Virus record (IMG/VR): IMGVR_UViG_3300007352_000001
Location: 1-64,000 of that record
From: a virus
DNA: 64,000 bases
Direction: 5' to 3' (one strand)
Numbering within the stretch: the stretch's first letter is position 1; the number at the start of each line of letters is the position of its first letter. Shown piece by piece: positions 19,185 through 61,068 of the stretch. Below the pieces are notes generated by a model. That model saw only the letters and a list, made by a program, of their open reading frames with translations, had not been told where the DNA came from and ran no database searches. Position numbers and translations under genes: made by a program.

Positions 19185-19421
19185 GTGACCACGGAGCTGA
19201 AACGGAGCCGGTGCACGGTGCCTACCACCATCCACACCACCGCAGGCCAGTGCCACTTCGTCATGATCCCTGGCGGGTTCGTCGCCATCGTCCCTGGCCG
19301 GGTGGGTTGGTACTCGGTGCACTCTCGACAGTGCCCGGAGCCCACCGTGGATGAGCCGAACCGAGCCAGCCGATTCGCCCACGTCGACCGCGTTAGTCGC
19401 CGACTCGCCCGCAAGCGCTGA
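19185..19421 (+). CDS. Small protein with GRVG tag-like segment
   Basis: A GTG-started 78-aa protein with FVAIVPGRVGWYSVHS, matching the GRVG-x-Y-S tag family, followed here by about 34 further basic residues. The N-terminal part is short and beta-like. It overlaps the next zinc-ribbon gene by 71 nt. Role unknown. Confidence 0.45.
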   Translation: MTTELKRSRCTVPTTIHTTAGQCHFVMIPGGFVAIVPGRVGWYSVHSRQCPEPTVDEPNRASRFAHVDRVSRRLARKR

Positions 19422-24427: not shown

Positions 24428-24862
24428 ATGCCCGCCGCTGACGATCTCCAGGACTCACTCTCCACGACCAAGCGGTTGATGGAAGAGTTCGGGTTCACCA
24501 AAGAAGAGGTCCGGCAGCACTTCGAGAACGTGCAGGCGGACATGCAGCGCATGGGTGAGTCGAACGGGGAGCTTGCGGAGGCCGCTCGCTACCTCGTCGA
24601 CGAACTGCGGAAGGCGTACCCCAAGCGGGTCGGCGACTTCTCGCAGCACGGCCCCGCGTTGCCGGACGACCAGTTGCGGAAGGGGCGAGGGGATGGCGGG
24701 GCGGTACGACTGGTACAGCATTCCGAAGACGATCATTTACCACAACAACTGCCCGGACGGATTCACCGCCGCCTGGGTCGCTCACTCGAAGTTTGGCGAC
24801 CACGACGTCCAGTTCCACCCAGCCAACTTCGGCGAACCGCCGCCCGACGTCGCTGGCCATGA
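24428..24862 (+). CDS. Helical protein with GRVG tag; 3' part overlaps next gene
   Basis: The first ~88 residues look real: helices DSLSTTKRLMEEFGFTKEEV and ELAEAARYLVDELRKAYP, then the tag KRVGDFSQHGPAL. Other tagged proteins stop within about 11 residues, but here the frame runs on through 170 nt of the DHH gene with low-quality Arg/Pro-rich sequence. Either the stop has been lost or the overlap is real. Function unknown. Confidence 0.5.
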   Translation: MPAADDLQDSLSTTKRLMEEFGFTKEEVRQHFENVQADMQRMGESNGELAEAARYLVDELRKAYPKRVGDFSQHGPALPDDQLRKGRGDGGAVRLVQHSEDDHLPQQLPGRIHRRLGRSLEVWRPRRPVPPSQLRRTAARRRWP

Positions 24863-40003: not shown

Positions 40004-40470
40004 TGCCGCCGATCGAAGAGACGCCGCAAAGCGTTCCCACCCAGGACGTGCCGCTGGCCGGTGGCCGGCAAGACCTGGAGTTCGTCATCACCACCAACGC
40101 CGAGCAGTTCACCTACCTCTACCCGGCACTGCGCTTCTTGCCGCTCGACCGCACGCGCGACTCCGACCCGCTCTACCGTGAGAAGGTGAAGCCGGTCTTC
40201 CTCGACCCGGTCACAATCCCGACCTACGTCGAGCTGCAGCCGCAGCTGAAGCTGCTCAAGCGCTTCGGGATCGAAGAAGAGCAGGAAGCGATCGCTGTGT
40301 GGTCCTGCCGGCACCTGAACCAGTACAAGCTCGATCCGAAGACGGGTGACCGCCTGCAGTACTTCAACATCCTCTTCGAGCTGTTGACCGTGAAGCTCAC
40401 CGACTACTTCCTCTCAACCCAGGTGCCGCTGAACAAGGTGGCGACCCTGAAGCAGGTGGCGCAACGATGA
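40003..40470 (+). CDS. Putative neck or head-tail connector protein
   Basis: A 155-aa protein (ATG 40003 by TGATG overlap; GTG 39991 is an alternative). It contains DPLYREKVKPVFLDPVTIPT, YVELQPQLKLLKRFGIEEEQ and a C-terminal LQYFNILFELLTVKLTDYF, a pattern seen in phage neck proteins. Position between neck and later structural genes supports this. Confidence 0.6.
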   Translation: MPPIEETPQSVPTQDVPLAGGRQDLEFVITTNAEQFTYLYPALRFLPLDRTRDSDPLYREKVKPVFLDPVTIPTYVELQPQLKLLKRFGIEEEQEAIAVWSCRHLNQYKLDPKTGDRLQYFNILFELLTVKLTDYFLSTQVPLNKVATLKQVAQR

Positions 40471-41729
40471 CGAATCCTCTCCGCGCGGTTGTGGATGCGA
40501 TCGCCAAGGACTACACGGCGTACTCGACCGGCGACGTCGACCGGATCAGCGGCGTGATTCGTCAACGGCTGGAGCGCACCCATCCGCACTTGGTGAGCGG
40601 GGCCACGAGCGGTTCTGTCGATGTGCACGTGCATGACCACTTCCGTGAGCGCGACGCGCGCCACCGCCGGCAGTTCTATCGCGAGGAGTTCGAGGGTATG
40701 GTGAGCCCGATCTGGGAAGGTGTGCTCAGCGAGATGCCGATCATCGGCGGGACCAGCTACAGCGACCATCCGCACCCCGAGGTGTACACGCACCTGGAGA
40801 ACGCGCGCCTGCGCGGCACGCGGCTGAAGATCACCTACGGCGACGTGAAGACTGGCCGTTCGTGGGAAGATCCCAGCGAGACCGAGCAGCTGAAGCGCCG
40901 GCCTGGCTGGATCCGCGCCTACGGCGCCCTCGGCAAGATCGGTCGGTCGATGGGACCGACGAAGATCCCTCTGGAGATCCCCACCGCGCGCTCGATGGGT
41001 GGCGGTGGGTTGCTCGTCAGCAACATCGTCAAGATCGAGCACGCCAACAAGAAGCACGGTGGTCTGATCTGGCAGCACCCCAAGTACCATGTCGGCAGCA
41101 ATCGCGTCGGCGACGCCAGCGCGGGCGGACCGCCAACGTCGGTGGGCGAAGCGATCCTACAGCGCATCATGTACGCACACGAGGACGTGCGCGACGTGAT
41201 CGAACAGCTGACGCGTCCCGACCTCGACGAGGCTGAGAAGCCGGCCGCGCGGTTGATCGACAGCGTGCGTCCGCACGATCGCGTCACCTATCTGATCCAC
41301 GCCGGCACCGGCCGCAACGGGCCGGAGTGGAAGCAGCACACCGGCCGGGTCGTCATGGTGAAGCCGAGCGGGCACGATCACCTGGTCGTCAACGGTGGTG
41401 GGCGCCACGGGACACCGCACGTGGTCACGCACGACACGCTGCTGAAGGTGCACACGCGCAAGGTCGACGGGCCGAGGCCGTTACCAGCCACTGCCAAGCG
41501 CGACCCACACGGCTTCAGCGAAGCCAAGGTGCGCGACACGGCCAACGAGCTGGGCTGCGAGCACTGCGGTGGGCGGGCGAAGTTCTCCTACGGCACCGCC
41601 GGCAAGATGCACTACGCGTGCACCACGCCAACATGTGGCAAGATCACCAGCAAGCGCGTGCTCGGGAGCGCAGGCGCGACCGCGGACCCGTACGGCTCGC
41701 GCTTCCTCGTCCCACCGTCGCGCCGATGA
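40467..41729 (+). CDS. Structural-region protein with C-terminal zinc ribbon
   Basis: A 420-aa protein. The middle is basic and His-rich (VDVHVHDHFRERDARHRRQF) and the end has CEHCGGRAKF ... CTTPTC, a zinc ribbon. It also contains PHDRVTYLIHAGTGRNGPEW, beta-like. No exact family was recognised. It shares overlapping starts with its neighbours, so it is part of the same morphogenesis transcript. Confidence 0.55.
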   Translation: MTNPLRAVVDAIAKDYTAYSTGDVDRISGVIRQRLERTHPHLVSGATSGSVDVHVHDHFRERDARHRRQFYREEFEGMVSPIWEGVLSEMPIIGGTSYSDHPHPEVYTHLENARLRGTRLKITYGDVKTGRSWEDPSETEQLKRRPGWIRAYGALGKIGRSMGPTKIPLEIPTARSMGGGGLLVSNIVKIEHANKKHGGLIWQHPKYHVGSNRVGDASAGGPPTSVGEAILQRIMYAHEDVRDVIEQLTRPDLDEAEKPAARLIDSVRPHDRVTYLIHAGTGRNGPEWKQHTGRVVMVKPSGHDHLVVNGGGRHGTPHVVTHDTLLKVHTRKVDGPRPLPATAKRDPHGFSEAKVRDTANELGCEHCGGRAKFSYGTAGKMHYACTTPTCGKITSKRVLGSAGATADPYGSRFLVPPSRR

Positions 41730-44196: not shown

Positions 44197-44550
44197 ATGG
44201 CGCGGTTTCGCACCCGCACGGAGATCTACCGCGCGGACACGCGCGACCTTGTCAAGCTCGCCATCTGGCAAGGCTTCGCAGAAGTCGACCAGACGCAGGA
44301 TCTGCAGCTGGTGCTCCCGATGTCGGGCAGCACCGTCACGCTCGACCCGGCCAACTACGGCATGACGCGGTTCGAGGAAGTGTACCTGGAGAGCGAGCAG
44401 GAGATCACCGTCACGCTCGAAGGGACCACGACCGCCGAGCTGCAGCTCGAACAGATGCTCATCCTGCGCGGCACCGACATCGCCTCGATCACGCTGTTCA
44501 GCGCGTGGCCGGTCGAGACCAGGGTGCACGTCATCCTGGGAGGCAGCTGA
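44197..44550 (+). CDS. Small beta-rich protein, paralog of previous gene
   Basis: A 117-aa protein with IYRADTRDLVKLAIWQGFAE at the start and a C-terminal half matching the preceding protein. The pair probably came from duplication and diverged. Context suggests a structural role. Confidence 0.6.
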   Translation: MARFRTRTEIYRADTRDLVKLAIWQGFAEVDQTQDLQLVLPMSGSTVTLDPANYGMTRFEEVYLESEQEITVTLEGTTTAELQLEQMLILRGTDIASITLFSAWPVETRVHVILGGS

Positions 44551-45107
44551 TGTACACGCCCCAGGGCCTCACCTGGGTCTCGGCAGGCCAGCGTGATGCC
44601 CAAGGGCGCCTGCGCCGCGGCACGGTGCCGTGGGATTCCGTGAAGCCGATTCGGTACAAGAACCCGATCGGCCCCCACACCACCGCTGTGCGGCACACGA
44701 TCTTGATCCGCGATCATCACTTCGGTGGTCCTACCGGGACACCTAACACGCTCGGGTTCGGCGGGAGCCTTGGCCCGGTGACGCGCAAGGACATTGGCCG
44801 AACCCTCACCGTCGACAAGCTGCCTGACGGGCGGTGGATCGACCACATCAGCACGGAGAAAGCTGTGGCACAAACCCGAGTTGGTGACGCGAGTCGCCGT
44901 GGTTCCGATTGGAAGAAGCGCAACGAGGCAGTCGAAGAGAACTTCGGCGCGATCTATCACCACCACTTCGCCGTCCCGGCCACGGGCATCTCGGCGCAGC
45001 GGCCGTGGTCGCGTCAGGACTTTCGCGACTACTACCAACAGCACCCCGATCTGCCGCAGCTCGTCGGTGACGAACTCGCAGAGCAGATCCGGAAGGTCTT
45101 CGAGTAA
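44550..45107 (+). CDS. Hypothetical protein
   Basis: A 185-aa protein starting by TGATG overlap. It has AVRHTILIRDHHFGGPTGTP, FGGSLGPVTRKDIGRTL and a C-terminal DFRDYYQQHPDLPQLVGDEL helix region. Basic, with several His. No known domain. Confidence 0.55.
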   Translation: MYTPQGLTWVSAGQRDAQGRLRRGTVPWDSVKPIRYKNPIGPHTTAVRHTILIRDHHFGGPTGTPNTLGFGGSLGPVTRKDIGRTLTVDKLPDGRWIDHISTEKAVAQTRVGDASRRGSDWKKRNEAVEENFGAIYHHHFAVPATGISAQRPWSRQDFRDYYQQHPDLPQLVGDELAEQIRKVFE

Positions 45108-45130: not shown

Positions 45131-47773
45131 ATGAGCAACTGGTACACGGACCGCCTGAACGACGTGTCGGCGATTCGCCAGGCACACTACGGGCGCACCG
45201 ATCACGGCCGGCCGTTTCAGGTGAACGAGTCGGTGCAGCTCACCGCACGTGTGGTCACTGAGAGCGCAACGCTGCCACCCTACATCACCGGCCGCGTCAC
45301 GTCGCTCGATGAACACGGCGTGACGGTCGACTTCAGTGGCTACGGCAAGCAGCGTCTCGGCGAGGCCGTCGCGCGCGACTTCCTGGTCGGCTACCGGAAC
45401 CACACCCCGGTCGACGTCCTGTCGCGCATGATGGGCAAGGGGCCGAACAAGCTCCACGAGTTCAAGGTTGGCGACACGGTCACCGACCGCCACGGGGCGG
45501 CGTTGGTGATCGAGCGCATCGACCCGAACACGCAGACGGCGATGCTGACCGACGGCTCGCACCTCTACCCGCGGCCGATCCGCGAGTTGAAGCTGGCGGG
45601 AGGCGGCGCCGCGATCGGCGGCGGCAAGGTGGTCGCCGAGCGTGGCAAGCAGGGCAACGGCAAGCAAGGCACTCTGCAGGAAGAGGGCGAGCGCCAGACC
45701 GTTGGGTCCGACGGGATCGCGCCAGGCACGAAGGTGCGCGTCACGAGCATCGACCCGATGTTCAACCAGTGGCGCCGGTTCGCTGTGCAGCAAGGCGAAG
45801 CGGAAGGCATCGTCGGCCAGGAAGGCACCGTGATCGCCGCGATGTACCCGACGGGCGTCGGGGCCGGTGGGCAGTCGCAGGGCGAGACGATGTACCGCGT
45901 ACTCTTCCCGTTCGGCGGCAAGAAGGACCTCTCGGCGAAGGAACTCGCCATGGGGGGAATGGGCGGTGACGGCCTCGTTCGCGAGTCCGTGAACCGGGGG
46001 TTGCTTCGGCGCCCCGGCCAGCGCCCGATCGACGAATCGCTCCTAGAGGAAGGATCGGCGTTCAGTCGCCGGCACTACGAGCGCATCGCGGACCTGATCC
46101 GCGAGTCGAGCATCCCCGAGAACGATCGACACGAGATCGTGCAGAGCTTCGGCCGCACGTTCATGAACGACAATCCCTACTACGACCACGCGCGGTTCGC
46201 CTCGCGCGTGCACAACGACATGGAAGGGGCCGGTCGGCAGTCGCGCCAGGGCATCACGGCGACGCCGACGCAGCGCCACTTCGTCGAGGTGGCGCGCACG
46301 CTGCGCGAGGCGCACATCAACCAGGACTCGCGCAACAAGCTGGTCCAGGCGTTCGGTCGGCACTTCAGCGGCCTCAACGAGCGCTACAAGCACCACGTCT
46401 TCCACAAAGCCGCTGGTGGGGTCGGGGATCCGATGGCCGGGCTGCACGAGGCCGGTGGGGTGACCCAAGGCTCAGTCATTCGCCAGCCGAAGCCGGTGAC
46501 CGACAAGTCGGTCAAGGCGGCGACCAAGCCGCGGGCAATGGCGTCGAAGATCGGGCAGACCGTCAAGACCGGCGGCACGGGCGGGGTCGTGGTCGGCGAA
46601 GAGAAGGGGCTGCTCAAGGTGCTGACCGACGATGGGCGGCAGGTCTTCGTCAACGAGTCGGTGCTGATGGCGCCGGCCGGTGGCCAGGCTCGCTGGACCC
46701 CTCCGCAGACCGAGTACAACGCGCCGCCCATCGCGCTCGCGGTCGGCTCGACCATCAACTTCGATGGCCGCTCGGGCGTCGTGGTCGAGGCCGGTCCCGC
46801 CTCGTGCCGCGTCCTGATGGACAACGGTGAGGACCTCCGTGTCGCCACCCGCTCGCTCGCCCTCGCCGAGGGTGAGAAGCCGGCGTTCTTGAAGGACAAG
46901 GACGACGACAACGACGACTCGGGTTCCAAGAAGAAGGACGAGAAGTCGGGGTCCAAGGACAAGTCCGGCTCCAAGGACAAGGACGACGACGAAGACGAGG
47001 ATGAGGACGACGACAAGAAGGACGAGAGCGTCGGCATGATGGCGCCGCAGTCGATGGGCCTCACCGCACCGTCGCTCGCACGTCCGGCTGGCGCCGCCCA
47101 AGCCCTCGAAGGTCAGACGATCGACGTCGCTGGGCAGCCGGCGATGATCCTCGGATTCACCAAGTTCAACCAGGCCGGGCAACCGACCGAGGCCCGCGTC
47201 GCCTACGAAGGCGGCAAGGAAGGGCTCGTCACGCTCGCAGAGAAGCGCGTGGACGAGTCGATGCAACTCGCCAAAGGGCTGACTCGCCGGCTCATGCGGG
47301 CGGACAACGCTGCGCGTGTGAGCGCGCAGAGCGGCACGGTCGACCGCCAGGTCGCCCAGGTCGCCGCCCGTCTGCGCCCAGTCAGCGAGAACAACCATCG
47401 CGCCCGCGCGGTCGACCTCGACCAGAGCAACGCGCTGGCGATGTCCGCGATCCAGCCGAACGGCCAGATCGTGAACCCGGAGATGGCCCAAGCGCTCGCC
47501 ATGGTGCAAACCAAGCTCGGCAACTCGCCGGCCGTCAAGCAGGCGGAAGGTGTCCTCGCTGGCGTGCGCCAGCCGGGCGCGGCATCGCCCAAGGCGATGA
47601 GCGAGGAGCAACTCAGCGAGGAGCGTCGCCGCGCGCTCACACGCGGCCTCGTGCGCAGCGTGAAGGAAGGCAAGGGCTTCAGCCCCTCGCGGCCGATCGT
47701 CACCTCGACGGGCACGGCCGTCACCGAAGACGTGCTCGCCGGGGCGCAGTTTGTCCCGAACACCGAGATCTGA
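45131..47773 (+). CDS. Large virion-region protein with helical repeats and acidic linker
   Basis: The product is 880 aa; the second ATG (45131) has a better-spaced GGAGG than the first (45125). The N-terminal third has SH3-like units. Two tandem helical repeats follow (FSRRHYERIADLIRESSIPE ... FGRTF; RHFVEVARTLREAHINQDSR ... FGRHF), of a type I recall from phage structural proteins. An acidic Asp/Glu/Lys/Ser linker precedes further beta-rich repeats. The last 150 residues are helical. It resembles a multi-domain virion or tail protein. Confidence 0.6.
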   Translation: MSNWYTDRLNDVSAIRQAHYGRTDHGRPFQVNESVQLTARVVTESATLPPYITGRVTSLDEHGVTVDFSGYGKQRLGEAVARDFLVGYRNHTPVDVLSRMMGKGPNKLHEFKVGDTVTDRHGAALVIERIDPNTQTAMLTDGSHLYPRPIRELKLAGGGAAIGGGKVVAERGKQGNGKQGTLQEEGERQTVGSDGIAPGTKVRVTSIDPMFNQWRRFAVQQGEAEGIVGQEGTVIAAMYPTGVGAGGQSQGETMYRVLFPFGGKKDLSAKELAMGGMGGDGLVRESVNRGLLRRPGQRPIDESLLEEGSAFSRRHYERIADLIRESSIPENDRHEIVQSFGRTFMNDNPYYDHARFASRVHNDMEGAGRQSRQGITATPTQRHFVEVARTLREAHINQDSRNKLVQAFGRHFSGLNERYKHHVFHKAAGGVGDPMAGLHEAGGVTQGSVIRQPKPVTDKSVKAATKPRAMASKIGQTVKTGGTGGVVVGEEKGLLKVLTDDGRQVFVNESVLMAPAGGQARWTPPQTEYNAPPIALAVGSTINFDGRSGVVVEAGPASCRVLMDNGEDLRVATRSLALAEGEKPAFLKDKDDDNDDSGSKKKDEKSGSKDKSGSKDKDDDEDEDEDDDKKDESVGMMAPQSMGLTAPSLARPAGAAQALEGQTIDVAGQPAMILGFTKFNQAGQPTEARVAYEGGKEGLVTLAEKRVDESMQLAKGLTRRLMRADNAARVSAQSGTVDRQVAQVAARLRPVSENNHRARAVDLDQSNALAMSAIQPNGQIVNPEMAQALAMVQTKLGNSPAVKQAEGVLAGVRQPGAASPKAMSEEQLSEERRRALTRGLVRSVKEGKGFSPSRPIVTSTGTAVTEDVLAGAQFVPNTEI

Positions 47774-49163: not shown

Positions 49164-49241
49164 CGGGGTGTAGGGCAGCCAGGCCAGCCCACCTGCCTTG
49201 GGAGCAGGTTGCCGCAGGTTCAAATCCTGCCACCCCGACCA
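49164..49241 (+). tRNA. tRNA-Pro(TGG)
   Basis: The cloverleaf is complete: acceptor CGGGGTG/CACCCCG, D-stem GGGC/GCCC, anticodon stem CCTGC/GCAGG with loop CTTGGGA (anticodon TGG), T-stem GCAGG/CCTGC with loop TTCAAAT, discriminator A and an encoded CCA. C1-G72 fits tRNA-Pro. It ends two bases before the HNH gene. Upstream (49080-49163) is a 7-bp hairpin TGCCGGC...GCCGGCA but no second tRNA. Confidence 0.9.
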
Positions 49242-49242
49242 T

Positions 49243-50037
49243 CTAGGCGACGACCCGATCGACGCGCTTCACGGGCGCATCAACGGCGTAGAGCGGTGAC
49301 AAGTGCCGCGGCTTCATGGTCGCGATGAAGTGCTCGCGCCAGCCGCGGGCAAACGCATCGAGATCCTCGATCGACTGCACCACGAGCTGTCCGTGCGCCG
49401 CGTGCCGGATGCTGGTGCGCACCACCTGCTGCGCCAGCTCGTGCGCTTCGCTCCAGGTCGCCGTGCGGCCGAGGTAGGTGTCGATGCGCTCCCAGAGCTG
49501 CTCGCGCTTCTCGGGGGGAATCACCCGAGCGTGTCGATCCAAGGCTGAGGCCGACCGGATGGCCTTGCCGCGGGTGCGGTCCTCCTCGGAGACGTCCTCG
49601 ACCGGCGCGCCAGGCTTCGGGATGTTCAGTGCCGCGGCGATCTCACAGCGGCGCTGATGGGCGAGCTGCTCGTAGCGCTCGTGGCAGTCGACACAGAGCG
49701 CGACGACGTCGTACGAGTTTCGAGAGCCCAGGCGGTTGGGAAACCACCGCCGGTAGCAGTACGGCACGATGTGGTGCTTGGTGAGCCGCTCAGTGACTCC
49801 ACAGACGGCGCAGTGGTTCGCCCGCGGCAAGAGCATGTAGGCGTTGCCCTTGTCGCCCGGACCGTTCGGCTCGAAGGTGAGCCGGATCTGCTTGTCGCCG
49901 ACGTACTCGGCGAGGTTGTTGCGCAGGTAGAAGTTCACCTTGCGCTGTGATGCTCGACACAATGGCTCCCCCTCACGGGTGAGGATCAACCAGTTGTCGA
50001 ACAGGACCCCCCGCCTCGCCTTCAACCGCCACCGCAT
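49243..50037 (-). CDS. HNH-type protein like the C-terminal zinc region of EXD2
   Basis: A 264-aa protein. The N-terminal ~70 residues are beta-rich; then CAVCGVTERLTKHHIVPYCY, SYDVVALCVDCHERYE gives Cys-x2-Cys ... HH ... Cys-x2-Cys-His, an HNH zinc fold. The pattern matches the C-terminal region of EXD2-type exonuclease proteins, but the exonuclease domain itself is absent. The C-terminal part is helical. Lying right after a tRNA gene, it may be mobile, like homing endonucleases. Confidence 0.7.
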   Translation of the reverse strand: MRWRLKARRGVLFDNWLILTREGEPLCRASQRKVNFYLRNNLAEYVGDKQIRLTFEPNGPGDKGNAYMLLPRANHCAVCGVTERLTKHHIVPYCYRRWFPNRLGSRNSYDVVALCVDCHERYEQLAHQRRCEIAAALNIPKPGAPVEDVSEEDRTRGKAIRSASALDRHARVIPPEKREQLWERIDTYLGRTATWSEAHELAQQVVRTSIRHAAHGQLVVQSIEDLDAFARGWREHFIATMKPRHLSPLYAVDAPVKRVDRVVA

Positions 50038-50330: not shown

Positions 50331-50555
50331 ATGGGTGAGGGTGGGGACTTTTCCTTTGTCGATCTAGGAGAGCAGTGCACCAGCGACCGCGCGCTGGCGA
50401 TCCGGTTCCTCTGGGAGAGCATGCAGGCCGGCCTCATGCAGCTAGACGAAGTGCGCGCCGGCCTCGACCTCCCACTGATCGGGCAGCCGCCTGGCCGTGT
50501 TGGTGACTTCTCGAAGAGCGGTCCAGCGCCGCTCAGCTTGCCAGGATACTGCTGA
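50331..50555 (+). CDS. Tagged small protein 1 (GRVGDFSKSGPA)
   Basis: A 74-aa helical protein (DRALAIRFLWESMQAGLMQL) ending GRVGDFSKSGPAPLSLPGYC. It is the first of seven adjacent, unrelated short proteins sharing this tag. The stop overlaps the next start (TGATG). Function unknown. Confidence 0.65.
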   Translation: MGEGGDFSFVDLGEQCTSDRALAIRFLWESMQAGLMQLDEVRAGLDLPLIGQPPGRVGDFSKSGPAPLSLPGYC

Positions 50556-50905
50556 TGCTCACGCGCAAGCGTCTGCTCGCCGCGGTGAAGTACCCGACCC
50601 GGTACGATGACCGCTGGCGTGAAGAGAGCTGGCCGGTCATCCGGTTCACGACCGACCAGATGTCCGAGCTGAAGCTAGGGGATCGCATCAGTGTCGACGT
50701 CGGCAAGGCGAGACAGAGCCGCATCTACGTCGTCGACTCGATCACGCACACCCCCGAGGGCGGGACCAACATCAGTGCCCACATGCCGATTCTCGGCGAC
50801 GCACCAGGTGAGAAGACCTACGACGTCTTGCTCGGGCCACCGAAAGGGCGTGTCGGGTTCTTCTCGAACGACGGCCCCGCGCCGAAGACTGCGAGCTGTC
50901 CGTGA
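50555..50905 (+). CDS. Tagged small protein 2 (GRVGFFSNDGPA)
   Basis: A 116-aa protein with a beta-rich middle (RISVDVGKARQSRIYVVDSI) resembling a small ASCH/PUA-like domain, then tag GRVGFFSNDGPAPKTASCP at the end. The domain guess is by pattern only. Confidence 0.6.
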   Translation: MLTRKRLLAAVKYPTRYDDRWREESWPVIRFTTDQMSELKLGDRISVDVGKARQSRIYVVDSITHTPEGGTNISAHMPILGDAPGEKTYDVLLGPPKGRVGFFSNDGPAPKTASCP

Positions 50906-51139
50906 ATGGGCGATCGCCTTCCAGATTTCTTCCACAACGGCACGTTCGACTTCGAGCCGCTGACGCGGCATCTCGACGAACTCGGTTGGCAGACCGAGGC
51001 CGCAATGCGTCAGTTCGCGCGATTGGCGGCGCTCGCTTTCCGTATTCCCGAGGAGTACCTCGTGCCGCCGATCCCGACTGGGAGAGTGGGGTCGTACTCG
51101 GAGGGTGGACCAGCGGCGCGCACAGCACTGCGGCCATGA
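50906..51139 (+). CDS. Tagged small protein 3 (GRVGSYSEGGPA)
   Basis: A 77-aa helical protein (LDELGWQTEAAMRQFARLAA; LAFRIPEEYL) ending in GRVGSYSEGGPAARTALRP. It starts immediately after the previous stop. Unknown function. Confidence 0.6.
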   Translation: MGDRLPDFFHNGTFDFEPLTRHLDELGWQTEAAMRQFARLAALAFRIPEEYLVPPIPTGRVGSYSEGGPAARTALRP

Positions 51140-51366
51140 TCCCGAAGGGCGAGAAGCCGTTGACGCGCAACCAGCAACGCATCGTCAACGCGCTGAAGGT
51201 CATCGGTGAGAAGGGCCTCCTCGATCATCCAGTAGAAGATTTGACCGAGAGCGAAGACGTGCGCAGAGCTGTGGCAGTGCTCAAGAAGTTCTTGGTGCCG
51301 AAGAACGGCCGCGTCGGGTACTACTCGCAGCACGGACCGGCGAAGTCGACGAGTCGCTTCCCATGA
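51136..51366 (+). CDS. Tagged small protein 4 (GRVGYYSQHGPA)
   Basis: A 76-aa protein starting by ATGA overlap: helices RNQQRIVNALKVIGEKGLL and SEDVRRAVAVLKKFLV, then GRVGYYSQHGPAKSTSRFP. The tag is the clearest copy. Confidence 0.65.
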   Translation: MIPKGEKPLTRNQQRIVNALKVIGEKGLLDHPVEDLTESEDVRRAVAVLKKFLVPKNGRVGYYSQHGPAKSTSRFP

Positions 51367-51635
51367 GCGGCAGCGGACCGGTGATGACGTGCGTCCAGTG
51401 CGGGAAGATCGGTCTGTTCCTACGCTCGGACAACCTCTGCGATCACTGCTGGAAGCAGCTCATGCACGCTCGTAACTACGGGATGACCGGCAGGCAGTTC
51501 CGAGACATCATCGAGGCGAGCCACATCGCGATGCCGGCGCCGATCCCTGACTGGATCACGGTGCTATTCCCAGCGGGGCGCGTCGGCTTCTTCTCGCAGT
51601 TCGGGCCGGCGCTGCGTACCGACACGCACCCATGA
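51363..51635 (+). CDS. Tagged small protein 5 with zinc ribbon (GRVGFFSQFGPA)
   Basis: A 90-aa protein: CVQCGKIGLFLRSDNLCDHC zinc ribbon, a helix, then GRVGFFSQFGPALRTDTHP. ATGA overlap with its neighbour. Confidence 0.65.
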   Translation: MSGSGPVMTCVQCGKIGLFLRSDNLCDHCWKQLMHARNYGMTGRQFRDIIEASHIAMPAPIPDWITVLFPAGRVGFFSQFGPALRTDTHP

Positions 51636-51904
51636 AAGACGCCCCGCCACCGAAAGGGGTCGTCTGGGTCGACCGGGAGGGCGTCCGCGTCCAGAACATC
51701 GAGGACTTCGAGTGGTACCGTGAGCACATCGAGAAGCCGCTGAAGGCTCTCATGGAACGCTCCGGCCAAGAGGTCATCCCCCTACGTGGATGGACGTTCA
51801 CGCCGGACGGCAAGTGGGCGATCAGCAAGAAGCTCCCTGTGCACGGAAGCGCCGGTTCCTATTCGATCAACGGTCCGGCAGACTCGACGAAGACATGTCC
51901 TTGA
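51632..51904 (+). CDS. Tagged small protein 6 (GSAGSYSINGPA)
   Basis: A 90-aa protein with EDFEWYREHIEKPLKALMER and a beta-like GWTFTPDGKWAISK, ending in the tag variant GSAGSYSINGPADSTKTCP. ATGA overlap at the start. Confidence 0.6.
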   Translation: MKDAPPPKGVVWVDREGVRVQNIEDFEWYREHIEKPLKALMERSGQEVIPLRGWTFTPDGKWAISKKLPVHGSAGSYSINGPADSTKTCP

Positions 51905-52194
51905 TCGACGAGTTCCCAGCCTTGCGCGGCTGGTACAAGATCACGCCACAGGCGGTCGAGTTGCGTGGCCGGGGAATCTCGCCGCTTGCGCCGATACATG
52001 TGTGTACCGGTCCGCCGGTGATCGAGTGCCAGTTTGACGACGATCGCTTGAAGCTCGAAGAATACCTGCGCCGGCAGATGAACGAGGAAGCCTGGCGGCT
52101 CGACATGCAGCTGCGACACTTCCGTGGGCGGCTAGGAAGCGTCGGCTCGTTTTCGCTCCAAGGACCTGCGCCGCGAACGGAGAACTACCCGTGA
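51895..52194 (+). CDS. Tagged small protein 7 (GSVGSFSLQGPA)
   Basis: A 99-aa protein with a longer helix (LKLEEYLRRQMNEEAWRLDM) and tag variant GSVGSFSLQGPAPRTENYP at its end. It starts 10 nt inside the previous gene. Confidence 0.6.
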   Translation: MSLIDEFPALRGWYKITPQAVELRGRGISPLAPIHVCTGPPVIECQFDDDRLKLEEYLRRQMNEEAWRLDMQLRHFRGRLGSVGSFSLQGPAPRTENYP

Positions 52195-52966: not shown

Positions 52967-53199
52967 CCGACGACTTCGACGACGTCCCGGAGTTGAACAG
53001 CCTCCCGAAGCTCGACATCGAGTTCGCCCCGCCGGTGAAGCGCCGCTCGCGGCGACTCGACGGCTGGACGCACCAAGACAGACCCTTGCGTGTCGAGGGC
53101 GTCGCCCCACCAGCAATCGACCGGCGCAAGCCGTTGCGCCGCGGACAAGTCGGCTACGCCTCGCGTGGCCGGCGCAAGAGGACGATCGACGATGCGTGA
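52891..53199 (+). CDS. Small protein ending in a GRVG-like tag, start uncertain
   Basis: The 3' part is protein-like (DFDDVPELNSLPKLDIEF ... RRSRRLDGW) and ends RRGQVGYASRGRRKRTIDDA, close to the ending of the protein at 572. The ATG at 52891 makes a 76-nt overlap; a later start (an ATA at 52963 overlapping the upstream TAA) would fit the packing but is non-canonical. Start is unresolved. Confidence 0.45.
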   Translation: MGSRRRHAYGGRRTRFSSPRRSFGITDDFDDVPELNSLPKLDIEFAPPVKRRSRRLDGWTHQDRPLRVEGVAPPAIDRRKPLRRGQVGYASRGRRKRTIDDA

Positions 53200-53715: not shown

Positions 53716-55266
53716 ATGCCCATGGACGCTTCGCCCTACCAAGCTCAAGGACCGGGTGACCCGAGCGCAGGCGCGGGGCCTCCGGCGTCGCAGAATCCGC
53801 CGCCGCCAGGCCCACCACAGGTCCCTGGGGCGCCGGATCCGCGCATGCAGCCGTTTGGGCAGCAGGCGTCGCCCGGCAACTTCCTGCAGCAGATCCGACA
53901 GTTCTCGGCGGACTGTGCCCAGGTCGAAGAGATCGTCACCGAGCTGCAGAAGCTCCTGCTGCAGATCAAGATGTCGATGCCGCCCGATCGCGTCGAGGCC
54001 ACGACCCAGGCGATGGGGCAGCTGCTCGCGGCGCAGTCTGGGCTCACCGGTGCTCGCATGGTGCTGGAGATGGCCACGATGCCGCAGCAGCAAGCCGGTG
54101 CCGGCGGTGGCGGTGTGCGAGAGGACAAGACGCCCGAGCCGACGACGTTCACCGCGCTTGTCGAACAGGCGGGCAAAGCAAAGTTCGGCCTGCCTCATGC
54201 GCCGCGGCGCTACACCTGCCAGGACTGCGGCCAAGAGCAGAAGATCTCGACCAACCACACCGACGACGTATCGGACTACTGCCGCGGCTGTTCGTGGAAG
54301 CCGTCGTTCGGCAAGACGGGCCACAACATCCCCGCGCTCGGTGGGCATACCTACCGCCGCTTCTCCTACGTCGGTGAACTGAAGGAATCCGCCGATGACA
54401 TCGAGCGCACGCTCGGGGTTGGTCGCTACGCTCGGCCGCAGACCGCCGCTGATCGCAAGCTCATCCGCGACTTCCTGGCGCCGAACACGACGGCAACGGC
54501 AGATGCATGGGCACGCCGGCCGGCCGGTCCGGTGACCACGCACGCCCGCTCGCCGTTCCAGCTGTCGATCCAGAAGACCGCCCTCGGGAAGAAAGGCGGC
54601 GTGCACGAAGCGCTCGCGACGACCTCGCACCACATGAGCGGGGGCGGTGGCACCGCGACGCAGACGCTCACCATCCCTGAGCGCGAGTACCAGATCCGCG
54701 AGTTCACTGACGGGCCGGTCACCCGTTACGAGCTGTCGCGCATCGGCAATGACCTACGGGCGCAGGTGCCGATCTACGTGTTCCATGACCAGAAGACCGG
54801 CGCGTGGAAGTCGACGCTTTTCCAGGAAGACGACGGAGGCGGCGATCGCCACGCCGAGCTGGTGAAGCGCTGGCTCTTCCAGGGCCGGCCGGCACGCATC
54901 ACCGACGCCATGGAACCGGTTGGCGGCTCGCCGCCAGCGTGGCCGTTCATGGACAACGACGGCTACGAGCGGCCAGGCTTCCACTCGACCCAGCGGCCGG
55001 TGGGAATCCCCGATCCAGGTCCGGGCCAGGGGCACTATGCCGAGTCGTCGTTCGGCGCGCTTGTTGACGAGACCAAGCGGTTCTCGAAGAGCGAGGTGGT
55101 GGCGTCGCTGCGCCAGCACGCACAGGACATCCGCGACGGCAAGATCAAGACGCGCTCGCCGAACGATGAGCCGCACACCATCATTGGCCCCGACGGCAAG
55201 CCGCACATCCCTCGTGGCCGTGTCGGGGCTGCCTCGCGCGTGCGCGTGAAGAAAGGCCGCGTATGA
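53716..55266 (+). CDS. Large protein with zinc ribbon and GRVG-like terminal tag
   Basis: A 516-aa protein. It begins with a Pro/Gly/Ala-rich region, then helices (VEEIVTELQKLLLQIKMSM), a zinc ribbon (CQDCGQEQKI ... YCRGC) and several beta-rich segments, and ends in GRVGAASRVRVKKGRV, a tag variant. It is cotranscribed with its neighbours. A virion or assembly role is possible but unproven. Confidence 0.6.
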   Translation: MPMDASPYQAQGPGDPSAGAGPPASQNPPPPGPPQVPGAPDPRMQPFGQQASPGNFLQQIRQFSADCAQVEEIVTELQKLLLQIKMSMPPDRVEATTQAMGQLLAAQSGLTGARMVLEMATMPQQQAGAGGGGVREDKTPEPTTFTALVEQAGKAKFGLPHAPRRYTCQDCGQEQKISTNHTDDVSDYCRGCSWKPSFGKTGHNIPALGGHTYRRFSYVGELKESADDIERTLGVGRYARPQTAADRKLIRDFLAPNTTATADAWARRPAGPVTTHARSPFQLSIQKTALGKKGGVHEALATTSHHMSGGGGTATQTLTIPEREYQIREFTDGPVTRYELSRIGNDLRAQVPIYVFHDQKTGAWKSTLFQEDDGGGDRHAELVKRWLFQGRPARITDAMEPVGGSPPAWPFMDNDGYERPGFHSTQRPVGIPDPGPGQGHYAESSFGALVDETKRFSKSEVVASLRQHAQDIRDGKIKTRSPNDEPHTIIGPDGKPHIPRGRVGAASRVRVKKGRV

Positions 55267-55768: not shown

Positions 55769-56662
55769 ATGGCGCTGCTGGACATCTTCCGTATCTACGA
55801 TCGGCACGTGGTCGACTTCGTTCGACACACCGTGAATCCGATCATCACGCAGTTGGACGTCGATGTCAGTGACGACGTCTCCTTCGCTTCGCCCGAGCGT
55901 CCCTACGCGGCTCGCGGCAACAATCCCCAATCTCGTGAACAAGCAGAACGCACCAAGCACGTCTCCGGCCTGATCGGAGACTTCCAATACGACGACCTGG
56001 TCGGCCAGACCGAGACGACGATCGACGAGCAGCGCGGCGTGCAGACCTTTGCCACGCCACGAGTGTCAGTCACGCGGCTCACCTGGCAGTTCTCCTCCGC
56101 ACGCAACAACACCGTGCCGGTCCGCCGGCTCCGGGTGTGGGATGCGGACGGCAAGCAGAACTTCTACCTGCAGACCGCCAAGGGCATCCGTCCGTGGGAT
56201 CTGCACTACCAGCTCGACTTCCAGACGCGCTTTCGCGAGGACATGAACCAGCTCCTGCGCTGGTACCTGTACCACCCGGACCAGACCTACTCGATCCAGG
56301 TGGACTTCCGGTACCCGTGGGGCTTCAAGTCCATCCCGCTGCAGTTCGATCAGATCGTCGACAACTCCGACATCGAGACCGGCGAGAAGGAACGCGCGAT
56401 CCGCTACACCATCCCCATGACCGTTGAGGGGTGGATGCTCGAAGCGTACGAGACCGAGCGGGACATTCCGTTCGACTCGGTCGCGCCGAACTTCTGGCTC
56501 ACGCAGAAGACCCGCATCGCCAAGACGGTCTGCATTCAGCACGCGCTGGCGTCGTTCGACGCCGCCGGCAACGTGCGCTCCTCCACCATCATCGAGCTGC
56601 CCGAGACGTGTTTCTCCGGAAGCACCATCGCGCTCCAAGGCAGTGGGAGCACGACGATCTAA
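55769..56662 (+). CDS. Putative tail/virion structural protein
   Basis: A 297-aa protein after CGGAGAC. Beta-rich segments (SVTRLTWQFSSARNNTVPVR; LHYQLDFQTRFREDMNQLL; RYTIPMTVEGWMLEAYETER) resemble tail completion or terminator proteins of contractile phages. It stands with a tail-completion-like protein and just before the sheath region. The exact role (terminator, stabiliser or baseplate) is not settled. Confidence 0.55.
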   Translation: MALLDIFRIYDRHVVDFVRHTVNPIITQLDVDVSDDVSFASPERPYAARGNNPQSREQAERTKHVSGLIGDFQYDDLVGQTETTIDEQRGVQTFATPRVSVTRLTWQFSSARNNTVPVRRLRVWDADGKQNFYLQTAKGIRPWDLHYQLDFQTRFREDMNQLLRWYLYHPDQTYSIQVDFRYPWGFKSIPLQFDQIVDNSDIETGEKERAIRYTIPMTVEGWMLEAYETERDIPFDSVAPNFWLTQKTRIAKTVCIQHALASFDAAGNVRSSTIIELPETCFSGSTIALQGSGSTTI

Positions 56663-57162
56663 TGCGCCCCTCCGATCTCACCAAACAGGTCCACCGTGCG
56701 CTCAAGGAAGAGTGGGACCGGTTGAAGGAGCAAGAAGGGAAGAAGCTCGCGCGCGAGTTCAAGAATGACCTGCGCACGCGCATCAAGCTCCAGGCCTTCA
56801 CCAGCTGGGTGCCTCTCTCACCCGAATACAAGAAGCGCAAGGAGAAGCTCGGGCTCGACCCGCGCACGCTGATGGCACGGGGCGACTACGTCAACTCGAT
56901 CCGGATCCGCCGCACAACCGAGAACACCTACGTCGTCGACGTGCCGCAGACCGTCAAGCACTACTCCGGTCTCACCTACAAGGAGCTGGCGGCGGTGCAC
57001 GAGTACGGCAGCAAGAAGGCGCACATCCCGGCTCGGCCGCATTGGCGTCCCACCATCCGTCGCTACCAGGCTCGCAAGCGCGAGCTGGAGAAGGCGATGC
57101 AGGAGAAGCTCGTGCAGCGGGTCGAGAAGCGCGTGAAGGCCTCGCTCAGCGGTGGGAGCTAG
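56662..57162 (+). CDS. HK97 gp10-like tail completion protein
   Basis: A 166-aa protein. WVPLSPEYKKRKEKLGLDPR ... RTLMARGDYVNSI and VHEYGSKKAHIPARPHWRP have the layout of HK97 gp10-family proteins (phage tail completion/neck), with the typical IPARPxxxP. The C-terminal helix is Lys/Arg-rich. It starts by TAATG overlap and its stop shares CTAG with the opposing gene's stop. Confidence 0.7.
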   Translation: MRPSDLTKQVHRALKEEWDRLKEQEGKKLAREFKNDLRTRIKLQAFTSWVPLSPEYKKRKEKLGLDPRTLMARGDYVNSIRIRRTTENTYVVDVPQTVKHYSGLTYKELAAVHEYGSKKAHIPARPHWRPTIRRYQARKRELEKAMQEKLVQRVEKRVKASLSGGS

Positions 57163-57737
57163 AGCGCGACCAGGAGCCCGGTAGAGACGATCAGGATCAA
57201 CACGAAGAGCATCACCCAACGGGTTGCAATGATCCGAATGCTGATGTCCTGGCCGAAAAACTCCGTGCTCTTCTTGCGACGACGCTGCCCGTCGACCGGC
57301 TCTAAGACGATGCTCTTGATCAGGCACATGCGCCGGAAGAAGTAGACCCACATCGGCACGAAGGTCGCCAAGAACAGGACGCCAATCACGACGTGCAAGA
57401 TGTCCTCGCCCGCCACCTTCCAGACGATCAGGGCGAGCGTGACCTTGCCGGTTGTCGAGGCTAAGAACTGGTCCGCGGCCACGCCCAACTCTTTCGCCAC
57501 CGTGGTGAAAGCGAGAGCGATGTCCTTGCCGAGCTGTGCCCAGTCGCTCACGCGTTCAGGGGTCAGTGCGCCGAGCGCGTTGGGGTCTACAGTCGGGGTG
57601 GAACGCATCCGCTCAGCCTGCTGGGCCAGGTCCAGCTTCTGCATCTCTGACAGCCCGCTCGTGTCAACGGTGACAGCAGCGAATGCTCCACTGCTGAACA
57701 CCAGGGCTCCTACGACGATCGCCACCGTCATCCTCAT
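57159..57737 (-). CDS. Membrane protein with signal peptide
   Basis: A 192-aa protein after GGAGGACAGCG. Signal peptide MTVAIVVGALVFSSGAFA, then a mostly helical part and two hydrophobic spans (LHVVIGVLFLATFVPMWVYF; WVMLFVLILIVSTGLLVAL). It ends facing the tail-completion gene. A membrane role, possibly in host modification, is inferred. Confidence 0.6.
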   Translation of the reverse strand: MRMTVAIVVGALVFSSGAFAAVTVDTSGLSEMQKLDLAQQAERMRSTPTVDPNALGALTPERVSDWAQLGKDIALAFTTVAKELGVAADQFLASTTGKVTLALIVWKVAGEDILHVVIGVLFLATFVPMWVYFFRRMCLIKSIVLEPVDGQRRRKKSTEFFGQDISIRIIATRWVMLFVLILIVSTGLLVAL

Positions 57738-58294
57738 CGCTGTCCTCCATCCTCTTCTCGGCGAAACGCTTCGATGTCGCTCTTCGTCACAAGCGCGGTG
57801 CAGGGGACGTCCAGCTCGTCCTCGATCCGGCGTCGCCCACCTTCCTCGCGGTCAACGCACGCGAGCACCATCAAGACCTTCAGTTGCGCGGCTTTGCATG
57901 CTGCCGCCGCTCGTAGCACGCTTCCACCGGTGGTGATCACGTCCTCAACGAGGATCACGCGGTCGTTCGGTCGTGTCGGGCCGGTGATGACGCTGGTGTC
58001 GAGCCCGTGGTCCTTGGGCTCGCGGCGTACGCTGAACCAGTAGAGGTCCGGGCACAGTGCGAGCACCGCAACTGCCATCGGGTCCGCACCGAGCGCCGGC
58101 CCGCCAACGCCATGGGCAGAGCCAGGGAGTGGACCAATCAGGTCGACCAGCGCCGGCATGATGTCCCCGCGGCGCAGCGCCTTGCTGGCGTCAATCAAGA
58201 CGGGGCTACGTCCACCCGAGGACAGCTTGAAGTCGCCCGTGCGGTAGGAGAACGCGGCGAGTGCTGCCAGGAGTCGTCTTCGGCTCGGATTCAT
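57734..58294 (-). CDS. Orotate phosphoribosyltransferase-like enzyme
   Basis: A 186-aa protein after CGAGGAGCC. GDFKLSSGGRSPVLIDASKA, SVRREPKDHG (the OPRTase Lys/His loop) and VILVEDVITTGGS (PRPP-binding loop, residues 113-125) match orotate phosphoribosyltransferase, which makes OMP from orotate and PRPP. All key loops appear intact. Next to tRNA genes, it may supply pyrimidine nucleotides during infection. The substrate is inferred by family. Confidence 0.85.
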   Translation of the reverse strand: MNPSRRRLLAALAAFSYRTGDFKLSSGGRSPVLIDASKALRRGDIMPALVDLIGPLPGSAHGVGGPALGADPMAVAVLALCPDLYWFSVRREPKDHGLDTSVITGPTRPNDRVILVEDVITTGGSVLRAAAACKAAQLKVLMVLACVDREEGGRRRIEDELDVPCTALVTKSDIEAFRREEDGGQR

Positions 58295-58306
58295 GGCTCC
58301 TCGAAA

Positions 58307-58379
58307 TGTCCCCGACGGGAATCGAACCCGTGTTGCCGACGTGAAAGGCCGGTGTCCTAGACCGCTAGACGACGGGGAC
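58307..58379 (-). tRNA. tRNA-Glu(TTC)
   Basis: Read on the minus strand: acceptor GTCCCCG/CGGGGAC, D-arm TCTAGCGGTCTAGGA, anticodon loop CTTTCAC (anticodon TTC), T-arm CGGGTTCGATTCCCG. No CCA is encoded. First of the three-gene minus-strand tRNA cluster from the left. Confidence 0.9.
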
Positions 58380-58384
58380 TGAAG

Positions 58385-58466
58385 TGCGAAGAGGGGGAGT
58401 CGAACCCCCACGGATTGCTCCACTAGGCCCTCGACCTAGCGCGTCTGCCAGTTCCGCCATCCTCGC
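58385..58466 (-). tRNA. tRNA-Leu(GAG), C33 in anticodon loop
   Basis: Minus strand: acceptor GCGAGGA/TCTTCGC, anticodon stem CTAGG/CCTAG with loop TCGAGGG (anticodon GAG), a long variable arm and T-arm GGGGGTTCGACTCCCCC. Position 33 is C rather than the near-universal T. No CCA is encoded. Confidence 0.85.
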
Positions 58467-58507
58467 CAATGCTGTCAGAAAACTGTGCTGGTTTTTCTGA
58501 CAAGGAG

Positions 58508-58592
58508 TGCGCGGAGAGGGACTTGAACCCCCACGCCGTGTGGCCGGCAACAGGTTTTGAGCCTGCCGTGTCTGCGATTCCACCATCCGCGC
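58508..58592 (-). tRNA. tRNA-Leu(CAA)
   Basis: Minus strand: acceptor GCGCGGA/TCCGCGC, anticodon loop CTCAAAA (anticodon CAA), long variable arm and T-loop TTCAAGT. Its 5' end directly abuts the stop codon of the SPOUT methyltransferase gene, so the two are likely on one transcript. Confidence 0.9.
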
Positions 58593-59150
58593 TTACTGTC
58601 CATTCCACCCGGCCGCAGTGATCTCGCCGCGGTGTTCGTGCAACATCTCGTTGAGCGGGAGGATCGGCTCTTCTCCCACCAGCTGCCGTTTCATCAGTCG
58701 ATCGTACAACAGCACGTTCACCGCTGCACTCAAGTTCAAGCAGTGGAAGCTCGGGATGTGGACGAAGCGGTGACAGAGTGTGCGGTACGCTGGCGGCACG
58801 GCGCCGTCTTCCGGACCAAACACGTAGACTGGGCGCGCCGGATGCTCGAAAGTCGTCAGCGGCTCTGAGTGCTCAAAGAGATCGACGCACACCGGCGTGC
58901 AGTCCACCGGCAAGGCGTCGAACGGCCGCTCACTACGCTGCCAGTTCACGGCTGCGTACCCTTTCATGCGTTCCTCACGTGGCAGGCGTTCGTACTCATC
59001 GCCGGTCACACGAGTGCCGGTCCAGAAGAGGGTCGATACGCCGAAGCACGACAGCGCGCGGATCGCTGCGCCAACGTTGTGCGAGTACTTCGGGTCGACC
59101 AGGACGACCGCAGGAACCTCCAACCGTTTCATCGTCACACCAGCGGACAT
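58593..59150 (-). CDS. SPOUT family RNA 2'-O-methyltransferase (TrmH/TrmL-like)
   Basis: A 185-aa protein. Motif 1 is DPKYSHNVGAAIRALSCFG (N25, G27, R31), motif 2 VYVFGPEDGAVP (about 108-119) and motif 3 HIPSFHCLNLSAAVNVLLYD (about 131-150), the knotted SPOUT core. The short, N-terminal-extension-free form resembles TrmL, which methylates the wobble base of tRNA-Leu. The adjacent tRNA-Leu(CAA) makes this a fitting candidate target. Start could be 59132, 59150 or 59159. Confidence 0.85.
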   Translation of the reverse strand: MSAGVTMKRLEVPAVVLVDPKYSHNVGAAIRALSCFGVSTLFWTGTRVTGDEYERLPREERMKGYAAVNWQRSERPFDALPVDCTPVCVDLFEHSEPLTTFEHPARPVYVFGPEDGAVPPAYRTLCHRFVHIPSFHCLNLSAAVNVLLYDRLMKRQLVGEEPILPLNEMLHEHRGEITAAGWNGQ

Positions 59151-59313: not shown

Positions 59314-61068
59314 ATGGCCACCGCATTCGTCTCTCCCGGTGTGTTTGTCCGGGAGATCGACCAATCCCTGTACGTCCGGCAGCTGTCGGATACGTCTTTG
59401 GGAGTGGTCGGTACCGCCAGCTGGGGTCCGGTCAACGAACCGCAGCTGATCACCAGTGTCAACCAGCTGCTCAACACCTTCGGTCCACCACTCGGACTCG
59501 ACACGAGCAACGCCTACGGCACCGCCGTCCACCCGATGATCAACACGGTCATGCGCTACCTGCGCAAGGGTCGTCGCGCGTGGGTCGTACGTGTCGAGGG
59601 GTCGGGCAGCAACTCGGCCGTGGAAGCCAACGTCGATCTCTACGCGATCGCCGGATCGGGCTCGGGGCCGTCGATTGCAGTGAACGCCAAGCACGGCGGC
59701 ACCTACGGCAACCAGATCCGCCTGCGGATCTCGAACGGCACGATCACTGGCCGCAAGAAGCTGACCGTCTACCTCGGCTCGCCGAACGACGCCGCGGTCC
59801 TGCAACAGGTCGAGACGTTCGACAACCTGAAGAAGACCAACGAGGCGGCCACCGCGACGACGTCGACCGACGTCGACTCATGGCTGACCAAGATCAACGG
59901 CGTCTCGGCGTACATCGAGGTCGCGCAGGGTGGTGACATCACCAACCAGCCCGACAACGTGAACCAGTCCGAGCCGGCGTCGGCGGGTCTCCAAGACGCG
60001 TCCGATCTCACCAACTCGGCCGATCAGCTCGACACCAACGACACGTTCTACAGCTTCGCGAACGGCGCCGACGGTGTGGGGCAGGTCTCGGACTCCGACT
60101 TCATCGGCACGCCGACGGGCGGGCCGAACGGGCAACCGTCTGGTCTGCACTGCTTCGACAACGCGGAAGCGTTCGTCGTCAACGTGCTGGCCGTGCCGGG
60201 CGCCCAGAAGCACTTCAACTCGACCGAGCACATCCGGCCGGGGCACACGTCGGCCATCGTCAACGCCCTCCAGTCCGTCTGCCTGATCCGGCAGGACTCG
60301 ATGGCACTGGTCGACCCACCGATCGCGCTCACGCCGACGCAGGTCGCGCACTGGCACAACGGCGACTTCAACCTCGACGGCACCGACGAGTCGGCGGCGT
60401 TCAACTCGAACCTCCTGGCGCTCCACTACCCGTGGGTCCAGGTGTTCGACGAGTTCACCGGCACCAACGTCTACCTCCCGCCATCGGCGTTCGTCGCCGA
60501 GGCGATCGCCAACACGGACTTCGTCTCGGATCCGTGGTTCGCACCGGCTGGTCTCAACCGTGCCCGGATCGAGGCGGCGATCAAGGCCGAGCGCACGCTC
60601 ACCCAGGGCGAGCGCGACTTCCTCTACTCGGGCGGCAACGTCATCAACCCGATCGCCACGTTCCAGGGCACCGGGCTGGTGATCTGGGGACAGCGCACGA
60701 TGCAGCGGCAAGCCACCGCGCTCGACCGCATCAACGTGCGCCGCATGCTGCTCATCCTCCGCAAGCTGATCGCCACGGCGTGTCAGTCGCTCGTCTTCGA
60801 GCCGAACGACGCGACGCTCTGGCGGCGTTTCCGTGGCCTCGTCTCGCCGTTCTTGGAGGCGGTGCAGAACCGCCGCGGCATCACGCAGTTCCGTGTGATC
60901 TGCGACGAGACCACCAACACCCCTGACGTCATCGAGCAGAACCAGATGATCGGGAAGATCTTCATTCAGCCGACCAAGACGGCTGAGATCCTGGTCATCG
61001 ACTTCGTGCTGACGCCACAGGGGGCGCAGTTCCAAGAGATCGTCCAGTCGCTCGGCGGCTCGGTCTGA
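59314..61068 (+). CDS. Tail sheath protein (gp18-like)
   Basis: A 584-aa protein behind AGGAGGGG. It begins ATAFVSPGVFVREIDQSLYV, the usual sheath N-terminus (SPGVYVxEiD), followed by SDTSLGVVGTASWGPVNEPQ and TSVNQLLNTFG. The C-terminal part (NVRRMLLILRKLIATACQSL; RGITQFRVICDETTNTPDVI) fits the conserved sheath core that contacts the tube. It contracts during injection. Size is close to T4 gp18. Confidence 0.92.
   Translation: MATAFVSPGVFVREIDQSLYVRQLSDTSLGVVGTASWGPVNEPQLITSVNQLLNTFGPPLGLDTSNAYGTAVHPMINTVMRYLRKGRRAWVVRVEGSGSNSAVEANVDLYAIAGSGSGPSIAVNAKHGGTYGNQIRLRISNGTITGRKKLTVYLGSPNDAAVLQQVETFDNLKKTNEAATATTSTDVDSWLTKINGVSAYIEVAQGGDITNQPDNVNQSEPASAGLQDASDLTNSADQLDTNDTFYSFANGADGVGQVSDSDFIGTPTGGPNGQPSGLHCFDNAEAFVVNVLAVPGAQKHFNSTEHIRPGHTSAIVNALQSVCLIRQDSMALVDPPIALTPTQVAHWHNGDFNLDGTDESAAFNSNLLALHYPWVQVFDEFTGTNVYLPPSAFVAEAIANTDFVSDPWFAPAGLNRARIEAAIKAERTLTQGERDFLYSGGNVINPIATFQGTGLVIWGQRTMQRQATALDRINVRRMLLILRKLIATACQSLVFEPNDATLWRRFRGLVSPFLEAVQNRRGITQFRVICDETTNTPDVIEQNQMIGKIFIQPTKTAEILVIDFVLTPQGAQFQEIVQSLGGSV

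Follow-up and report, generated by a model that had tools for sequence, protein, structure and literature searches.

Why should seven consecutive, overlapping genes of a virus encode short proteins that have little in common except the way in which they end? We studied this question in the first 64 kb of the 241,426-base virus record IMGVR_UViG_3300007352_000001 (hereafter the window, i.e., the whole stretch of 64,000 nucleotides), to which nine further stretches, making up the remainder of the record, were joined for a whole-genome gene count. A simple codon-usage caller gave 361 genes and predicted proteins, with 93% of the sequence coding; it missed tag-bearing open reading frames (ORFs) at 572-898, 24428-24862, 125.8 kb and 226.2 kb. 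Judging from matches to T4-like families, the host is a giant phage from the T4 superfamily, its head protease and head protein being of T4 type:

34684-36294 of the window: head-maturation protease
36334-37860 of the window: major head protein
56662-57162 of the window: neck protein
59314-61068 of the window: tail sheath
from 63436 of the window: tail tube
173.6 kb of the record: T4-like portal

The best matches of the sheath and the head protein among named phages are below 40% identity, so that the lineage is a distant one.

The seven-gene train and its shared ending

The seven genes of the train (50331-52194) lie amid head and tail genes of the plus strand:

50331-50555, plus strand: gene 1 (g079), 74 aa; tag GRVGDFSKSGPAPLSLPGYC at 50493-50552
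50555-50905, plus strand: gene 2 (g080), 116 aa; tag GRVGFFSNDGPAPKTASCP at 50846-50902
50906-51139, plus strand: gene 3 (g081), 77 aa; tag GRVGSYSEGGPAARTALRP at 51080-51136
51136-51366, plus strand: gene 4 (g082), 76 aa, helical body; tag GRVGYYSQHGPAKSTSRFP at 51307-51363, within a tail predicted to be disordered
51363-51635, plus strand: gene 5 (g083), 90 aa, CxxC zinc-ribbon-like; tag GRVGFFSQFGPALRTDTHP at 51576-51632
51632-51904, plus strand: gene 6 (g084), 90 aa; tag GSAGSYSINGPADSTKTCP at 51845-51901
51895-52194, plus strand: gene 7 (g085), 99 aa; tag GSVGSFSLQGPAPRTENYP at 52135-52191

The original prediction had described seven overlapping ORFs with a shared ending, a Pro just before the stop codon in six of them and bodies that are little alike, and all of this was borne out. 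The endings follow, in register, the consensus G[RS][VA]G-x-[FY]-S-x-x-G-P-A-x-[RKS]-T-x-x-x-P-stop, the exception being gene 1, which is one residue longer and diverges past GPA. The terminal Pro is found in six of the seven train proteins, compared to 7.9% of other genes (P = 1.6e-6), and is encoded by CCG, CCA and CCT; these six genes also conserve the Thr three residues past GPA, for which all four codons are in use. The bodies of the proteins show no significant mutual similarity, except that those of genes 3 and 7 match weakly over 21 aa, and a family profile search found no family above the curated cut-off for any of the seven. The structure prediction of g082, the one usable model for the context of the tag, has a fairly confident helical body and a tag region of low confidence, without secondary structure.

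Directly upstream of the train (49164-50037 of the window) there is a tRNA-Pro gene and, after it, a minus-strand HNH-like gene; this region is likely to be an insertion hotspot.

We compared codons to residues in the 12-residue core of the train. The codon is identical in 70 of the 166 same-residue pairs, whereas 67.6 are expected from the codon usage of the phage. Identity at the level of chance means, in line with the original prediction, that the conservation resides in the protein and does not reflect a recent DNA repeat; any shared DNA origin has to be old enough for silent sites to have become randomised. The Ser of other flavours of the tag is encoded by both TCN and AGY codons, again a signal at the protein level. 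Recent duplication with identical codons, which the original prediction had set against a functional tag, was also looked for, and synonymous codons were random instead. A DNA repeat or a regulatory element was rejected because of this random choice of codons. In Rickettsia, palindromic elements place the same peptide in frame in unrelated genes and proteins of one genome; unlike those elements, the codons here are randomised, and DNA similarity is no explanation.

Distribution of the core in the genome and in relatives

To put the tag in the context of the genome, we counted every four-residue gapped pattern, with none chosen beforehand, in the 361 predicted proteins. The commonest one is R-V-G-x-x-S, present in 19 proteins versus 1.8 expected from composition (P about 1e-13), or in 14 proteins outside the train (P about 9e-9); permuted patterns (GRV..S, VGR..S, etc.) occur in 1-3 proteins each. 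Chance would account for about two of the 19 matches, the weakest-looking being g221, g234, g279 and g294. Twelve of the 19 copies fall within 40 residues of the C-terminus (19% expected, P = 4e-5), the others being mostly internal, as in g010, g063, g072 and g353. Outside the window the core is present on both strands, and the carriers at 108-112 kb (minus strand), 209 kb and 226 kb are distant from the main head-tail block. Therefore, the earlier figure of 13 proteins in all is an undercount. The six further sites named along with it are all in frame, including the two in uncalled ORFs of the window. Other carriers within the window are as follows:

572-898, plus strand: uncalled ORF, ends VLWESGQPWRRVGFASRPGVPGVD; core at 851-871
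6130-6834, plus strand: g010, internal VLWETGWYEGRVGYTSR; core at 6541-6561
7807-8613, plus strand: extended g014, weak candidate N-terminal copy MIPRGRAGYES at the start
19185-19421, plus strand: g034 ORF, GRVGWYS at 19296-19316, 34 residues before the end
24428-24862, plus strand: uncalled ORF overlapping the next gene at its end, internal KRVGDFSQHGPALPDD; core at 24623-24643
40467-41729, plus strand: g063, internal NRVGDASAGG; core at 41103-41120
44550-45107, plus strand: g072, internal TRVGDASRR, just upstream of a domain common to the relative L017; core at 44877-44894
52993-53199, plus strand: g088, C-terminal GQVGYASRGRRKRTIDDA; core at 53143-53163
53716-55266, plus strand: g090, 516 aa, C-terminal GRVGAASRVRVKKGRV; core at 55216-55236; the homolog in the relative L013 ends ERIGDVSGGRVPDDA

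The ORFs at 572-898 and 6130-6834 also have VLWE[ST]G in common, about ten residues ahead of the tag, and may contain a common domain.

The flavours of the tag are local. The form GRVGx[FY]SxxGPA is that of the train. HLQxGQ[VI]GYASR is found in three neighbouring ORFs near 226.1-226.4 kb; the C-terminal tag of g088 also contains GQVGYASR, and GQVGYASQ occurs around 125.8 kb. The minus-strand genes g141, g142, g144 and g145 (108.1-111.8 kb) have RVGDAS[RK], or a near variant of it, toward their ends, and so do g297, g072 and g063 at one site or another.

Two of these carriers belong to known families. The protein g145 matches phrog_1987, and g142 matches phrog_26039 over residues 7-134 of 150, so that its tag, at residues 137-143, is outside the family domain. 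The tag is absent from 5 of 5 annotated phage homologs of g142 and from 75 of 75 homologs found in viral contigs, most of the latter ending shortly past a conserved PGGMPY; in the ORFs around these 75 homologs the motif is not recurrent (seven single matches in all). Thus, the tag belongs to the phage rather than to the widespread family, and was added on here. This bears on the possibility that all carriers derive from one ancestral gene of which the end alone is still recognisable, the peptide being a structural element. The weak match between train genes 3 and 7 would fit such hidden paralogy; however, the bodies differ (helical in g082, zinc-ribbon-like in g083, phrog_26039 in g142, phrog_1987 in g145) and the homologs of g142 are complete without a tag, and we regard this as the least probable of the explanations considered here.

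Comparison across the lineage rests on two or three genomes. Gene order from g073 to the sheath is conserved in the contig L013 (13.2 kb, sheath 58% identical), which lacks the train, its g078 homolog being followed directly by the g086/g087 homolog. L013 has a sister tag, RIGDVSG, at three sites: (i) at the C-terminus of the g090 homolog (786 aa, L013:5312-7672); (ii) internally in the same protein; and (iii) internally in the g073 homolog. The protein g090 itself ends with GRVGAASR where its L013 homolog has RIGDVSG, although the regions before the tag do not align. The L013 homolog of g090 has also gained several CxxC zinc-ribbon-like modules along with the internal tag, both absent from the 516-aa protein of the window. 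Another sister copy, KIGDVSG, is present in L014. Another relative, L017 (81.8 kb, AT-rich, head protein 68% identical), has neither the train nor a recurrent tag over its 81.8 kb; the end of its g090 homolog, YIGDVIGNNG, was considered as a tag and set aside as probably a chance resemblance within a zinc ribbon. Since the train is absent from the same place in L013 and L017, it is an accessory cassette in a lineage that uses the tag.

A search for the motif at protein ends in other phages had been suggested in the original prediction; run on IMG/VR for GRVGxxS..GPA, it gave no convincing copies elsewhere (none with the strict pattern and, with a looser one, six matches, none of which ends a convincing gene). 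A scan for PERIGDVSG found the two relatives and five others, with the motif in frames of at least 40 aa in two only. Both of these frame matches were rejected, one being apparently opposite a coding strand and the other inside a DNA-binding-like repeat protein, with no further copies. No relative was found by a sheath search of bacterial and archaeal genomes, and a literature search on phage-wide C-terminal motifs gave nothing useful.

These data can be compared with a neutral scenario, in which short DNA segments were copied between neighbouring gene ends without any function. The clustering of flavours in neighbouring genes does suggest local copying at some time; however, silent sites are saturated while residues are kept, and therefore selection has held the residues since any such copying. 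It also speaks against this scenario that L013 keeps the sister tag at the same g090 end, after regions that do not align. We consider neutral spread highly improbable.

What may read the tag

Random codons, unrelated carriers, the predicted disordered tail of g082, addition to a known family and the sister tag of a relative together make a recognition tag acting at the protein level a well-supported reading of the sequence. The original prediction is thus supported in part, the uses that it proposed being conjectural; internal copies in several carriers argue against a simple C-terminal degron. It is probable that something binds the tag. As to what, our preferred, if tentative, interpretation is that the peptide is a lineage-specific docking or address tag for one receptor, most likely the prohead interior. 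In this scheme, a short linear tag would be carried on flexible Pro/Gly-rich tails or between domains of unrelated accessory proteins; one putative lineage-specific receptor would bind the R-[VI]-G-x-x-S core, so that a gene acquiring the tag in frame would have its product sent to the same destination. With the inside of the prohead (core or shell) as the most likely receptor, some twenty small proteins would ride in the virion and be delivered with the DNA, in a manner similar to that of T4 capsid targeting sequences (CTS) or encapsulin targeting peptides. The flavours differ enough for more than one receptor to be possible.

The internal proteins of T-even phages are diverse and have a targeting sequence alone in common (PMC3012670; PMC9026906). 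The T4 CTS is N-terminal and is cut off by gp21 after L/I-x-E (PMC9026906). The resemblance to the CTS of IPI-IPIII and Alt consists in one short peptide on otherwise diverse small proteins of one phage genome, in a T4-superfamily phage with a T4-type head protease and head protein, and in a variable cassette amid virion genes. The differences are that the CTS occupies the first 10-19 residues, whereas the tag is mostly in the last 40 residues or internal (N-terminal copies are weak candidates only), and that there is no cleavage motif inside or beside the tag in this phage. The cleavage rule of its head protease is likely to be [VLI][TN]E[SAD], given the similarity to the T4 rule L/I-x-E (PMC9026906); several such sites are present in the head protease (34684-36294) and in g073 (45131-47773). 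Being neither N-terminal nor next to a cleavage site, the tag falls outside the definition of a CTS, although it may act in the same way.

We consider prohead loading, in the manner of the CTS, the likeliest destination. The train has head and tail genes around it, as a variable cassette encoding injected proteins might, and the RIGDVSG copies of L013 are in head-region proteins that hold several [VLI][TN]E[SAD]-like sites, one copy being followed by the site-like KVTES; both make us lean toward the prohead as receptor and make packaging and injection possible. Conversely, other carriers are located well away from virion genes, and the carriers taken together show no enrichment in likely protease sites (1 site in 3905 aa versus 27 in 74213), which counts against the virion. 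Taken together, the virion is a plausible destination for the tag, somewhat short of a probable one.

The same sites bear on the idea that the tag is itself cut by a phage protease, freeing a tail or a linker. In L013 the tag is located between domains of large head-region proteins and, in one copy, just upstream of KVTES, as might be expected of a cleavage site; on the other hand, the tag lacks the Glu of the likely head-protease site, and such sites are dense in the protease itself and in g073. Cleavage at the tag is therefore quite unlikely in our estimation.

Encapsulin cargo carries a C-terminal targeting peptide on a flexible linker, which binds the inside of an HK97-fold shell (PMC7925596). 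The core of the native M. xanthus peptide, LTVGSLRR (PMC7925596), has a hydrophobic residue and Gly followed by Arg, loosely as in RVGDASR, the two being compared by sequence only. Here, a flexible tail was predicted in g082 only, and the tag copies are C-terminal in many proteins and internal in some. A search of the record for encapsulin (PF04454) gave no match at E <= 1, with positive controls matched, and an encapsulin system was rejected on this ground.

Another reading, nearly as likely as a virion destination though still doubtful, is that the tag addresses proteins to a hub outside the virion, for example takeover factors to one host machine or to a compartment or filament made by the phage. 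The scatter of carriers over the genome and over both strands favours such a hub, as does the tubulin/FtsZ-like protein that the phage encodes. The homologs of tagged g142 and g145 map close to the termini of the XacN1 (ORF003) and CBB ("redundant repeat") phage genomes, where early genes are often located, which suggests an early role. However, the largest cluster of tags sits among virion genes, and no chimallin homolog was found with phiKZ gp54 as the query, a weak test with a distant query run without a positive control. Selective protein sorting is also known in giant phages of the Chimalliviridae; unlike the tag, import into their phage nucleus relies on surfaces, with no conserved signal sequence found (PMC11087766).

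The strict C-terminal position in the train, with its terminal Pro in six proteins, would also suit a degron or an adaptor-binding tag through which a protease, of the host or of the phage, would degrade phage proteins in a regulated manner. Tags of the ssrA type end in AA-like residues; the terminal residues here are not of this kind, and elsewhere the tag is internal or as far as 34 residues from the end. We find a degron unlikely.

Returning to the docking tag and its receptor, a broader and more doubtful version is a phage-wide sorting code, in which the peptide and a dedicated receptor would bring unrelated proteins, about twenty of them or more, together in one particle or compartment, and the flavours (GRVGxFSxxGPA, GQVGYASR, RVGDASR, RIGDVSG) would mark sub-destinations or sister phages. 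If one receptor reads the tag, some twenty unannotated phage proteins would form one functional group, giving a handle on their function. A prohead receptor would make the tag the C-terminal equivalent of the T4 targeting sequence, arrived at by a different route, whereas a compartment in the cell would imply a peptide sorting signal of a kind so far not found in nucleus-forming phages. In either case, sequence alone would predict which uncharacterised proteins act together.

Other features of the record

Several observations were made along with the analysis. A minus-strand block with three tRNA genes (57159-59138 of the window) separates the neck gene from the tail sheath gene; in both L013 and L017 these two genes are adjacent. 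The protein at 20695-22344 of the window has a strong match to PF18823 (InPase domain), which occurs in PHROGs labelled endolysin, DarB-like antirestriction and minor head protein. Elsewhere in the record, a family A DNA polymerase of 1064 aa (144493-147687) has an N-terminal domain of the uracil-DNA-glycosylase superfamily in the same protein, and the tubulin/FtsZ-like protein (191405-192562) has a TubZ-like C-terminal domain, in a phage of the T4 superfamily. Finally, six tandem genes encoding proteins of about 180-225 aa (221578-225226) have a different C-terminal ending, C[DN]FRxLE[VI]xY, with one distant copy at 151105-151665; these genes look like paralogs.
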